64,000 nucleotides of DNA from a candidate division KSB1 bacterium (GCA_034521575.1 JAXHMJ010000002.1:94706-158705); one strand, 5' to 3'. Counted from the stretch's first letter, positions 26,491-30,801 are shown. A program made the numbers and translations. The notes: a model not told the origin generated them from the sequence alone.

Positions 26491-26520
26491 AAAAGGGCTG
26501 TTTAAACAGCCCTTTTTTTT
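26491..26520. terminator. Strong bidirectional terminator
   Basis: A perfect 18-bp palindrome GGGCTGTTTAAACAGCCC (26495-26512) is flanked by an A run on the left and eight T on the right. It sits between the convergent M16 peptidase and the flavoprotein relic and can stop transcription from both sides. Confidence 0.9.
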
Positions 26521-27467
26521 ATTTTCGCATATCCCTGGCACACATTTCCGCCGCTTTGATCAGCGGATAGGCGGCCGGTGAAGCCGTCAGCATGGGCTGA
26601 GTCCCGATTTGTGCCACGAGAAAATCATATATAGTCATATGATTCTGGATAGCAAATCCAATGACATTGATCAGCTCGCCGCCGCTTTTGCCGGCACACA
26701 CTTCGCCGCCCAGAACAACACCGTTTTCTCGCAACACGATCAACTTTACGGTCTGGGGGGAAGAATCGTCCAGACAACCGGGATGCCAGTCAATGCCGCT
26801 AAAGGTGCCTGTGACAATGTCAAAATTTTCATTTCTTGCCATGGTCTCGGTCAATCCGGCCACGGCATAAGACGTCTGGTTAATACAGGTAGAATAGATA
26901 CCAATGGTTCCCCGGAATGTTTTTATGGTCGATAATTTAAACAAATTCATTGCCGCAACCCGCGCCTCTGCACAGGCTGTGGAAGCGAGCATCACTTTGC
27001 TGAGTTTGCCTGTTGAAAAATCATGCTTTTCGGCGCAATCGCCGACTGCGAAAATATCCGGAACGTTGGTGCGCATATATTGATCGACTTTGATAAATCC
27101 AAATTCATTAATCTGCAGTCCGATTTTTTCCGCCAGTTCTGCGTTGGGTTTATACCCGCATGATAATACAACTGCATCTGCGTCCAGTTCTTCGCCGTTG
27201 TCCAACAGCACACCTGTCACCTGACCGTCGCCTTTGACCGCCGTTCCGGTCATGACGTTGACACCGCGCGATTTGAGGTTCTCCTCGGCCTTGTCGGCAA
27301 ATTCCTTGTCAAATGCCGTCCCCATAATGTGCGGCAGGACTTTGATCAGAGTAACATCTTTGGATTTTTTATTAAATTCGTCTGACATCTCCACGCCGAT
27401 GAATCCGGCGCCGATGACTAATTTTTTGCAACTCTTTGACGCTGTTATGAAGATTGTATTGAATCAT
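26519..27467 (-). pseudogene. Pyridine nucleotide-disulfide oxidoreductase (CoA-disulfide-reductase/NADH-oxidase type), N-terminal FAD domain lost
   Basis: The main frame (26519-27394) holds the NAD-binding and C-terminal domains: LKSRGVNVMTGTAVKGD, ADAVVLSCGYKPNAELAE, the FAD motif TNVPDIFAVGDCAEKHD, and the dimerisation domain with IGTQPMLTASPAAYPL. Upstream, VIGAGFIGVEMSDEF (the NAD-binding GxGxxG) continues from another frame that begins MIQYNLHNSVKELQK at 27467, so there is a frameshift about 27400-27430. The first about 150 residues, including the FAD-binding Rossmann motif and the redox cysteine, are missing. It is therefore inactive as encoded, although the C-terminal portion is well conserved and may have decayed recently. 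Confidence 0.8.
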
Positions 27468-27833: not shown

Positions 27834-29108
27834 ATGAATGAATTGCGATTATACAATACAGCGACGGATGAGAAGCAAAAATTTCAACCCAGACAACCCG
27901 GACACGTTAAATTGTTCACCTGCGGACCCAGTGTGTACCGTTTTCCGCATCTCGGGAATTACCGCACCTATCTCTATGAGGATGTTTTGCAAAAGTATCT
28001 GGAATATAAAGATTACACCGTGCAGCGTGTCATCAATTACACAGATGTTGAAGATAAATCCATAGAACTTGCTCTGAGCCAGGGCGTTACGGTGCGTCAG
28101 CTTTGCCAGCCGGTTGAAGAACGCTTTGTACGCGAATGCGGACTGCTCAATATTGATTTGCCTGACGAGATACCGCGTGCCAGTACCAGTGTGGAGGCTG
28201 CTGTAGATTTGATTGAGAGCCTGTTGGAGAGCGGGCACGCCTATTGGCATGAGGGGGAAGTGTTTTTTGATCCGTTGACCTATAAAGGATTTGGACGCCT
28301 GTATGGACTGGATATGAGCAACTGGCCGGATAAAAAGATCCGGTTCCGTCAGGATACCTATCCCGGTACGCGCTGGAATCGCGGTGATTTTATCTTGTGG
28401 CATAAACCGAAAAAGAAAGAAGGAAATGTATGGTGGGAAACGCGTATCGGCAAGGGGCGGCCGGCCTGGAATATTCAGGACGCGGCCATGATCAAAAAGA
28501 CGCTCGGTTTTGAAATTGATATCCATACAGGCGGATTTGATAATCTGTACCGGCATCATGATTATACGCTGGCCATTATGGAGTCGGCTTCGGGCAAGGC
28601 GTTTTGTCCCTGGTGGCTGCATGGCGGCGAGCTTTTGGTGGATGGTGAAAAAATGTCAAAATCAAAAGGTAATGTCGCGTATCTGGACGATATGGTGGAG
28701 AAAGGATTTGATTACCGGCACATCCGCTTTTTCCTGCTGTATGCTCCGTATCGGGAAAAACTGGACATGTGTATGCCCTGTGTAGAAGAGCGCGCCGGGC
28801 ATCTGGACCGGGTTCGTCGACTGGTCTGTTCGCTTTTTGAAAAGGAAACATCGGGCGCGGATGAAATTGATTTTGATCCGGCTCGGGAAATTCGTGATGC
28901 ATTTGAGGAAAAAATGGATGACAATTTAAATGTTGCCGCTGCGTTTGATGCGGTGGCTGATATTCTGATGCGTGCCGAGCATGTGGATCATGAAAATGGA
29001 CTCCCCGCCCCAACGCGCCGGGAATTGCATAGTGTGCTGAATGATATTGACCGGGTGTTTGCTGTTTTGGGATGTGATGCTGATTCAGAGAAAGGTCAAC
29101 AGATATGA
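27834..29108 (+). CDS. Cysteinyl-tRNA synthetase paralogue lacking zinc ligands
   Basis: A 424-residue class I synthetase-like protein closest to CysRS: FTCGPSVYRFPHLGNYRTY (HLGN at 39-42 as the HIGH motif), INYTDVEDKSI, and VDGEKMSKSKGN (KMSKS at 273-277). In canonical CysRS zinc is held by four residues: the first Cys (here Cys30), Cys in WHIEC, and His and Glu in HHENE. Here WHIEC is WNIQD (Asp216) and HHENE is HHDYT (His241, Thr245), so two ligands are gone. That zinc binds the substrate cysteine thiol, so the substrate may not be cysteine. The C-terminal anticodon region is short. Its last codon overlaps the ABC-transporter gene (ATGA). It could still be a divergent functional CysRS. Confidence 0.85.
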   Translation: MNELRLYNTATDEKQKFQPRQPGHVKLFTCGPSVYRFPHLGNYRTYLYEDVLQKYLEYKDYTVQRVINYTDVEDKSIELALSQGVTVRQLCQPVEERFVRECGLLNIDLPDEIPRASTSVEAAVDLIESLLESGHAYWHEGEVFFDPLTYKGFGRLYGLDMSNWPDKKIRFRQDTYPGTRWNRGDFILWHKPKKKEGNVWWETRIGKGRPAWNIQDAAMIKKTLGFEIDIHTGGFDNLYRHHDYTLAIMESASGKAFCPWWLHGGELLVDGEKMSKSKGNVAYLDDMVEKGFDYRHIRFFLLYAPYREKLDMCMPCVEERAGHLDRVRRLVCSLFEKETSGADEIDFDPAREIRDAFEEKMDDNLNVAAAFDAVADILMRAEHVDHENGLPAPTRRELHSVLNDIDRVFAVLGCDADSEKGQQI

Positions 29109-30013
29109 GTGTGATCAAAGCTGATAATCTGGTCAAACAATTCGGCGGTTTGACCGCAGTCAATTCGATTTCATTTCAAGTCAAATCCGGTGAGTTTTTC
29201 GGTCTGCTCGGTCCCAACGGCGCCGGCAAAACCTCGGCGATTCGAATGATATACGGCTTTTCACCGATATCCAATGGAGAAATGCGCGTGTTCGGTCAGG
29301 ATATTCGTACGGACTGGCGTGATATACGATCGCGCATGGGAATCTGTCAGCAGAACAACACGCTGGATCCGGATCTGACGGTGGAACAGAATCTCTGGCT
29401 GTATGCGCGTTATTTTGAGATGGATCAAGCGCATGCCAAGCAGCGTTCCGAGGAGCTGCTCGAGTTTTTTGCGCTCACTCATAAACGCAAAGCCCGGGTG
29501 ATGGAACTGTCCGGCGGATTAGCGCGCCGGCTTCAGCTGGCGCGTACATTGGTGCCGGAACCGGAACTTTTGATTCTCGATGAACCGACCACCGGCCTGG
29601 ATCCGCAGTCCCGGCATCAGTTGTGGAACCGGCTGCTTGAATTGAAAAAACGCGGTCTCACTTTGTTTTTGACCACGCATTATATGGATGAAGCCGAGTC
29701 GCTCTGTGAGAGAATCCTGATTATGGATCATGGCACTATTATCGCAGAGGGGGCGCCAAAGCAATTAATCTCTGAACATGTGGCCGAGAGTGTGATCGAA
29801 ATCCAGACTCCGGGTGAGGAGCTTTTGGCCTATATTCACAAGCACGATATTCGTTATGACGATCTGGGCCAGCGGATTATTGTCTATACCCAACCGCAGA
29901 GCGAACTGGAAAAGGAAATCCGAAATATCTATTGTATGGAAGCTTGTCTGTTTCGGGCCGGAAATCTGGAAGATGTATTTCTGCGTCTGACCGGACGGGA
30001 GTTACGCGAATGA
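29105..30013 (+). CDS. ABC transporter ATP-binding protein (NodI/DrrA-like)
   Basis: 302 residues. Walker A GPNGAGKTS, Q-loop ICQQNNTLDP, signature LSGGLARRLQLARTL, Walker B LLILDEPTTGLDP and the H-loop TTHYMDE are all intact. The LSGG(x)RRL signature and the GLDPQxRxxLW motif are those of NodI/DrrA-type exporters. Its ATG overlaps the CysRS-like stop by ATGA and its own stop overlaps the permease start by ATGA, so three proteins are made in coupled fashion. It energises the permease encoded next. Confidence 0.95.
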   Translation: MSVIKADNLVKQFGGLTAVNSISFQVKSGEFFGLLGPNGAGKTSAIRMIYGFSPISNGEMRVFGQDIRTDWRDIRSRMGICQQNNTLDPDLTVEQNLWLYARYFEMDQAHAKQRSEELLEFFALTHKRKARVMELSGGLARRLQLARTLVPEPELLILDEPTTGLDPQSRHQLWNRLLELKKRGLTLFLTTHYMDEAESLCERILIMDHGTIIAEGAPKQLISEHVAESVIEIQTPGEELLAYIHKHDIRYDDLGQRIIVYTQPQSELEKEIRNIYCMEACLFRAGNLEDVFLRLTGRELRE

Positions 30014-30801
30014 ATCGACCTGCTCTTTCTGATATTACCCTTCGGTTCCGGCACGTCTGGTACCGGAATTTAATAACCTACAAGCGTATCTGGAAAGTTA
30101 ACTTTCTTGTCCCTCTGCTCGAGCCTGCTTTTTATATTTTGGCATTTGGACTTGGGTTCTCCGGCCTTATCGGCGGGGTCGAGTATGCAGGCCTGCAGCT
30201 GGAGTATACCCGGTTCATGGCGCCGGCACTGGTGGCGACTGCCTGTATGTGGAATTCTTTTTTCGAAACCACCTATACCTCTTTTGTGCGGATGTACTAT
30301 CAAAAGACATTTGACGGACTTTTGGCAACACCGTTAAGTCTTGAGGAAATTATCATTGCGGAAATTGTCTGGGCGGCATCCAAAGCTGCGGGCGCGGTCA
30401 CGATTATGCTTGTCGTGCTGATTCCCATCGGCTTTGCCAACTTTCCCGGAGCTCTGATGTGCATCCCGCTGGCCTTTCTGGGCGGACTCGCCTTTGCTTC
30501 CATCGGAATGTTTTTTACCGGTATCATTCCGACAATCGACATGTTTAATCTGCCGGTGTTTTTGTTTATCACCCCCATGTTTCTATTCTCGGGTACGTTT
30601 TTCCCCATTTCAGGAATCCCGGAATGGGCCGGACTGTTTTCTCTGTTGTTTCCGTTGTATCATCTGGTTGAATTGACCCGCTTTTTCTGTATAGGCGCCA
30701 TGGAATCGCATATGCTTTTTAATATCCTGTATCTCATTCTGTTCGCTGTGCTGTTCGGATATCTGGCGCTCCGCAATATGAAGCGGCGCATTATTCAATA
30801 G
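30010..30801 (+). CDS. ABC-2 type permease (NodJ-like)
   Basis: A 263-residue inner-membrane protein with about six hydrophobic helices. Typical segments are LEPAFYILAFGLGFSGLIG, FMAPALVATACMWNSFFETT, YQKTFDGLLATPLSLEEII (the coupling-helix region of NodJ-type permeases) and TPMFLFSGTFFPISGIPEW. Start at 30010 in the ATGA overlap with the ATPase gene, not at 29932. NodJ relatives export modified oligosaccharides, antibiotics or lipids. Coupling to a synthetase paralogue suggests export of an aminoacylated or peptide-like product (inference). Confidence 0.93.
   Translation: MNRPALSDITLRFRHVWYRNLITYKRIWKVNFLVPLLEPAFYILAFGLGFSGLIGGVEYAGLQLEYTRFMAPALVATACMWNSFFETTYTSFVRMYYQKTFDGLLATPLSLEEIIIAEIVWAASKAAGAVTIMLVVLIPIGFANFPGALMCIPLAFLGGLAFASIGMFFTGIIPTIDMFNLPVFLFITPMFLFSGTFFPISGIPEWAGLFSLLFPLYHLVELTRFFCIGAMESHMLFNILYLILFAVLFGYLALRNMKRRIIQ

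Follow-up and report, generated by a model that had tools for sequence, protein, structure and literature searches.

A CysRS-derived protein family of bacteria and archaea with a conserved Cys/Asp/His triad, and its apparent operon with an ABC-2 exporter

Organization of the locus

The window analyzed here is a 64,000-nucleotide stretch of DNA from a candidate division KSB1 bacterium, and positions are counted from its first nucleotide. A sequence-only reading had singled out a segment in which a paralogue of cysteinyl-tRNA synthetase (CysRS) is translationally coupled to a NodI/NodJ-like exporter. The three genes of this segment and the motifs of the CysRS-like protein are as follows:

27834..29108, + strand: 424-aa ligase-like protein derived from CysRS; it has a catalytic domain and a helical bundle but no anticodon-binding domain
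27921..27923, + strand: codon for Cys30, the retained equivalent of E. coli zinc ligand C28, invariant in 74/74 family members
27948..27959, + strand: HIGH motif, HLGN, residues 39-42
28323..28391, + strand: insert specific to the family, WP..K.RF..DTY.G..WN.GDF (residues 164-186), resembling neither canonical CysRS nor MshC
28467..28490, + strand: WNIQDAAM, residues 212-219, where canonical CysRS has WHIEC; Asp216 replaces zinc ligand C209
28551..28568, + strand: RHHDYT, residues 240-245, where canonical CysRS has PHHENE; His241 is kept and Thr245 replaces Glu238
28650..28664, + strand: KMSKS motif, residues 273-277
29105..30013, + strand: NodI/DrrA-like ABC ATPase, 302 aa; ATGA overlap between its start and the stop of the synthetase gene
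30010..30801, + strand: NodJ-like ABC-2 permease, 263 aa; its start overlaps the ATPase stop by ATGA

Both ATGA overlaps that had been proposed are present, at 29105-29108 and 30010-30013, and HLGN and KMSKS are retained in the protein as first described (residues 39-42 and 273-277). The product of the open reading frame at 27834-29108 matches the Pfam domain tRNA-synt_1e (PF01406; E=1.4e-72), and the Pfam search found neither DALR_2 nor CysS_C in its 424 residues, as compared with 478 for the canonical CysRS of the same genome. An AlphaFold model of the protein (pLDDT 84.9) has as its best PDB match the CysRS structure 8qhp (TM 0.85), with MshC 8hfn at TM 0.79; the family-specific insert is the least certain part of the model (pLDDT 45-58). 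The two downstream genes have the architecture of an exporter composed of an ABC ATPase (PF00005) and an ABC-2 membrane protein (PF01061). They belong to the same subfamily as NodI/NodJ and DrrA/DrrB but fall far below the NCBIfam cut-offs, reaching 292 of 521 bits for NodI and 133.6 of 206.65 for NodJ. In searches of a defence library, the synthetase and permease had no match and the ATPase had only generic ATPase matches.

On the minus strand, a pyridine nucleotide-disulphide oxidoreductase gene (26519-27394) adjoins the cassette. It is N-terminally truncated, with a Pfam match that begins at position 155/291 and stop codons upstream, and may mark a rearrangement or insertion boundary.

Spread and relationships of the family

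The window genome encodes a canonical CysRS elsewhere (G000:C3:96410-97627, after ispD/ispF), which retains the four zinc ligands and has a DALR domain at its C-terminus. This second gene, the absence of an anticodon-binding domain from the window protein and its placement in a separate clade, described below, bear out the proposal that it is a CysRS paralogue. A scan of 84,980 species genomes with this single protein identified 11 orthologues, with approximately 45-66% identity, in Desulfobacterota, Nitrospirota, Zixibacteria, Spirochaetes, Bathyarchaeota and Methanoperedens. In a profile built from them, orthologues scored approximately 520-720 bits and other CysRS at most 400 bits; a second CysRS with a score in the latter range was also present in 10 of the 11 genomes. 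Within the same family as the window genome, another genome contains a divergent second CysRS-like match (G002:C59:32-946, 29% identity) in a 410-aa frame at a contig end.

In total, 74 family members were found, distributed among Desulfobacterota, Nitrospirota, Zixibacteria, Spirochaetes, Bathyarchaeia and Methanosarcinia. Profile-positive genomes in five groups numbered 16/291, 28/251, 14/238, 17/246 and 3/247, and the family is therefore widespread but patchy. Within its own phylum the window genome is the sole carrier among 82 genomes, the others having only canonical CysRS, which suggests that the gene was acquired horizontally; base composition (49% G+C for the cassette vs. 47% for the window) is not diagnostic of such transfer. 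No relative was found in viral contigs with the window protein as query, and plasmid and phage collections yielded no orthologue, the CysRS- and MshC-type matches listed being below approximately 34% identity. Among the plasmid records, 503 from Klebsiella have a CysRS match, some annotated as cysS, and an extra plasmid-borne copy is common there.

A tree was constructed from 34 sampled family members, 24 canonical CysRS and one MshC. The family members formed one clade apart from canonical CysRS (SH-aLRT 100) on a stem of 1.07 changes per site, so that the window protein lies outside normal CysRS; it grouped with the proteins of loci L035, L036 and L039 with support of 100. Most members are about 400-434 aa long and lack the anticodon-binding domain. 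Against the NCBIfam cysS equivalog (TIGR00435, cut-off 340) the window protein scored 303 bits and three relatives 296-316. The family shares with canonical CysRS its fold, catalytic motifs and the residues Trp205, Thr68, Cys28 and His234 (E. coli numbering), and differs in the missing domain, in the substitutions C209D, H206N, E208Q and P233R, in a variable position 238, and in the presence of a second CysRS for housekeeping. An ordinary CysRS is ruled out by sequence.

MshC, the cysteine:GlcN-Ins ligase of mycothiol synthesis (TIGR03447; PDB 3c8z, 8hfm), is likewise derived from CysRS, is approximately 410 aa long and keeps HIGH and KMSKS. Like the family, it has lost the anticodon-binding domain and the fourth ligand, Glu238, and retains one Cys ligand, the His ligand and an HH[ED]Y motif. 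The family differs in having Asp for the second Cys ligand (74/74), Asn and Gln for His206 and Glu208, and a distinct insert, and it occurs in different lineages. Members tested scored 168-179 bits against the MshC model (cut-off 485.1; MshC control 717), and membership in MshC is excluded by this score and by the second ligand.

A literature search found no paper on such a CysRS-derived family. We conclude that these proteins constitute a coherent, previously unnamed CysRS-derived family in bacteria and archaea. Its activity has probably never been sought, as its members fall just below the cysteine--tRNA ligase cut-off and have no model of their own in the libraries searched. Six relatives had been reported with in-frame stops; the extracted proteins contained no internal stop, which speaks against recoding, and the reported stops are most likely natural ones read through by the search.

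Other unusual CysRS genes were encountered. In a Desulfobacteraceae genome (G083), L065:1351-3627 (-) encodes a fusion of a cysteine synthase (PALP) domain with a CysRS-like one; the latter retains the four zinc ligands and the anticodon-binding domain and has lost HIGH (MNLSE) and KMSKS. In a Nitrospiraceae genome (G084), an apparent serine acetyltransferase and a canonical CysRS occupy one continuous 710-residue frame (L066).

Linkage to exporter genes

Neighborhoods of the family gene were examined at 72 loci including the window, of which 71 were parsed. The same-strand order synthetase-ATPase-permease was conserved in four, namely the window, L035, L137 and L036, with L035 and L137 belonging to the same genome. 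Junctions in these loci are 4-base overlaps or a 3-base gap, and identity to the window is 64-66% for the synthetase, 72-74% for the ATPase and 80-85% for the permease. The three-gene arrangement is thus kept in relatives. Two further arrangements place an exporter beside the family gene: six archaeal loci carry a homologous ABC pair, approximately 41-50% identical, that is convergent with the synthetase (one with the permease only, as parsed), and in eight Nitrospirota loci a MATE efflux gene lies directly upstream on the same strand. Most of the 71 neighborhoods have no exporter adjoining the family gene.

The exporter genes were also followed independently of the synthetase. Permease homologues (54-83% identity) were present in 28/291 genomes of one Desulfobacterota class, and those inspected were mostly part of an ATPase-permease pair with no fixed neighbor. 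Pairs with a permease 63-83% identical to that of the window occur without an adjacent synthetase, many in genomes that lack it altogether; an exclusive pairing with the synthetase was accordingly rejected. Because it is often found away from the synthetase, beside neighbors that vary, the ABC pair may have a role of its own. The two nevertheless occur together more often than expected in that class, with 8 of the 16 synthetase-positive genomes carrying the ABC subfamily vs. 1.5 expected (hypergeometric 2e-5, kinship ignored). These eight genomes represent about four separate lineages. Since most of the gene linkage amounts to a few inherited arrangements, the independent linkage events perhaps number about five.

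These data bear on the possibility that the synthetase and the exporter are functionally unrelated, having been brought together by chance in an operon that horizontal transfer then spread. Such an origin would be compatible with the free-standing pairs in many Desulfobacterota genomes, with the restriction of the operon to one clade, and with L039, another member of that clade, whose 10-kb contig carries no ABC pair. We nevertheless regard it as rather unlikely, given that order and tight junctions have been kept while the synthetases diverged to 64-66% identity, that a homologous pair lies beside the archaeal gene in another arrangement and a MATE gene beside the Nitrospirota gene, and that the synthetase and ABC subfamily are enriched for co-occurrence. 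The earlier suggestion of a product made and exported together is therefore upheld in part: the operon and the MATE linkage speak for it, and the many members without an adjacent exporter and the ABC pairs that stand alone speak against it as a general rule. Linkage to an exporter looks real in the window lineage and inessential to the family.

Active-site residues and a possible function

In alignments with E. coli CysRS, residues C30, D216, H241 and T245 of the window protein correspond to zinc ligands C28, C209, H234 and E238. Two of the four canonical ligands are thus replaced, as had been noted from the sequence, and alignment with many relatives did not restore them; Asn213 for His206 and Gln215 for Glu208 are further changes near the site. 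Comparison of the 74 members with 41 canonical CysRS showed that S33, N213, Q215, D216 and R240 are invariant in the family where canonical CysRS has T, H, E, C and P, respectively. This uniformity at D216, N213, Q215 and S33 indicates that the substitutions are not noise. D243 and Y244 are likewise invariant across the family, and both groups share invariant C30, H241, W212, T70 and the two lysines of KMSKS. By comparison, position 245 (canonical Glu238) varies among T, N, S and other residues, and the His at window residue 231, invariant in canonical CysRS, drifts.

The sequence-only reading had concluded that zinc is probably no longer bound. In all 74 members, however, a new acidic residue is locked together with two of the old ligands while freed positions drift, a pattern that makes a metal site rebuilt from Cys30, Asp216 and His241 more probable than the loss of the site. 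Zinc sites of the Cys/Asp/His type are known, for instance the DCH site of metallo-beta-lactamases. In addition, MshC, which has Ser at the Glu238 position in our alignment, holds zinc by Cys/Cys/His plus the substrate thiol (PMC9736012). On these grounds zinc loss is not supported, though it is not disproved.

We favor, at close to an even chance, an MshC-like, tRNA-independent ligase that activates cysteine or an analogue and hands the aminoacyl group on to a small acceptor, the product being exported in this lineage. The CysRS-type pocket would adenylate a small alpha-amino acid, with cysteine or a close analogue the most likely candidate, and the acceptor would be an amine or hydroxyl of a small molecule rather than tRNA. 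The triad would bind a divalent metal, zinc or another, whose shell the side chain of the substrate would complete. In the window lineage, the product, or something later derived from it, would leave the cell through the NodIJ-like ABC-2 exporter of the same apparent operon, and in some Nitrospirota a MATE pump would take the job of the ABC exporter. This proposal draws support from CysRS homology, the predicted fold, intact HIGH and KMSKS motifs, the amino-group contacts (Thr70, and Ser33 for Thr) and Trp212; from the missing anticodon-binding domain, the invariant triad, the monophyly of the family and the canonical CysRS in the same genomes; and from exporter linkage in three arrangements and the lack of a linked selC*-type tRNA. 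The favored product class is that of low-molecular-weight thiols and their conjugates, on the grounds that the family gene is flanked by peroxiredoxin genes in two archaeal lineages: a Bcp-type gene lies just upstream in 14 Bathyarchaeia loci, and a different type lies just downstream, followed by a lipoyl-synthase-like gene, in two Methanoperedens loci.

Against this interpretation, cysteine may have ceased to be the substrate when Cys was replaced by Asp. In a related alternative, close to the earlier proposal, the enzyme would also be a tRNA-independent ligase, with its metal site lost or repurposed and with Asp216 contacting a different amino acid, such as serine or 2,3-diaminopropionate, or some other small polar one. 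A hydroxyl or an amine could be bound by Asp, and two canonical ligands and their neighbors H206 and E208 are changed in every member. We consider this unlikely, as C30 and H241 have stayed invariant together with Asp216 while other freed positions drifted, Cys/Asp/His triads are known to bind zinc, and MshC shows that three protein ligands suffice.

A different role would be the charging of a special tRNA. CysRS* of Desulfobacterales, encoded in selC*/selB*/cysS* systems of anaerobes, is a CysRS paralogue without an anticodon-binding domain and with an altered connective-peptide region that charges selC* tRNA(Cys) with cysteine (PMC7609411). The family resembles it in the same domain loss, an altered insert region and its presence in Desulfobacterota. 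cysS* is, however, described as lying downstream of selB*, and the family extends to archaea. ARAGORN found no selC*-type tRNA near the family genes examined, Rfam gave no match in the window region or ten neighborhoods, and the SelB/EF-Tu-type GTPase motif G.[VIT]DHGK[TS] was not found in the 71 neighborhoods. Together these results make tRNA charging quite improbable. More improbable by far is a dead or backup CysRS copy, whether a decaying paralogue or a zinc-free isoform comparable to the low-zinc forms of other synthetases such as ThrRS T2 (PMC9437257): the zinc-ligand changes would fit, but catalytic motifs and new residues are strictly conserved over bacteria and archaea, and normal tRNA(Cys) charging is unlikely for a protein without an anticodon-binding domain.

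If the MshC-like ligase reading holds, the family could be the third derived from CysRS, after MshC and, by description, CysRS*; present in bacterial and archaeal groups that are mostly anaerobic, it would use a Cys/Asp/His metal site to activate cysteine or an analogue and form a small conjugate, plausibly a low-molecular-weight thiol for which each lineage has its own ABC or MATE pump. We advance this full assignment tentatively, and would sooner expect some part of it to fail than all of it to stand. Beyond ordinary translation, enzymes derived from CysRS are known from a single pathway, that of mycothiol, and a single special tRNA system, and low-molecular-weight thiol chemistry is poorly known in many anaerobic archaea and sulfate reducers. 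A strictly conserved family with an apparently redesigned metal site in Methanoperedens, Bathyarchaeia, Nitrospirota and Desulfobacterota offers a genetic way into the question of what such organisms produce and release.

In the neighborhoods examined, no gene pointing to a substrate, an acceptor or a biosynthetic partner is conserved family-wide, and contexts vary by lineage, which counts against the favored function. In one genome, both copies of the family gene have a DinB_2 superfamily gene upstream; the wider superfamily takes in bacillithiol transferases (PMC5815605). Immediately upstream of the family gene at L145 and L148 are a pair of radical SAM genes, of which one has a SPASM domain, and a small cupin-like gene; the arrangement looks like a modification operon. 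A small cupin also accompanies the MetRS-paralogue peptide ligases, predicted class I synthetase paralogues for which an amide-linked metabolite has been proposed (PMC2922099), although the present family is of the CysRS lineage and lacks pathway genes common to all its members. At L149, L150 and L151, a DUF4213/DUF364 protein, putatively involved in heavy-metal chelation, is encoded just upstream on the same strand.
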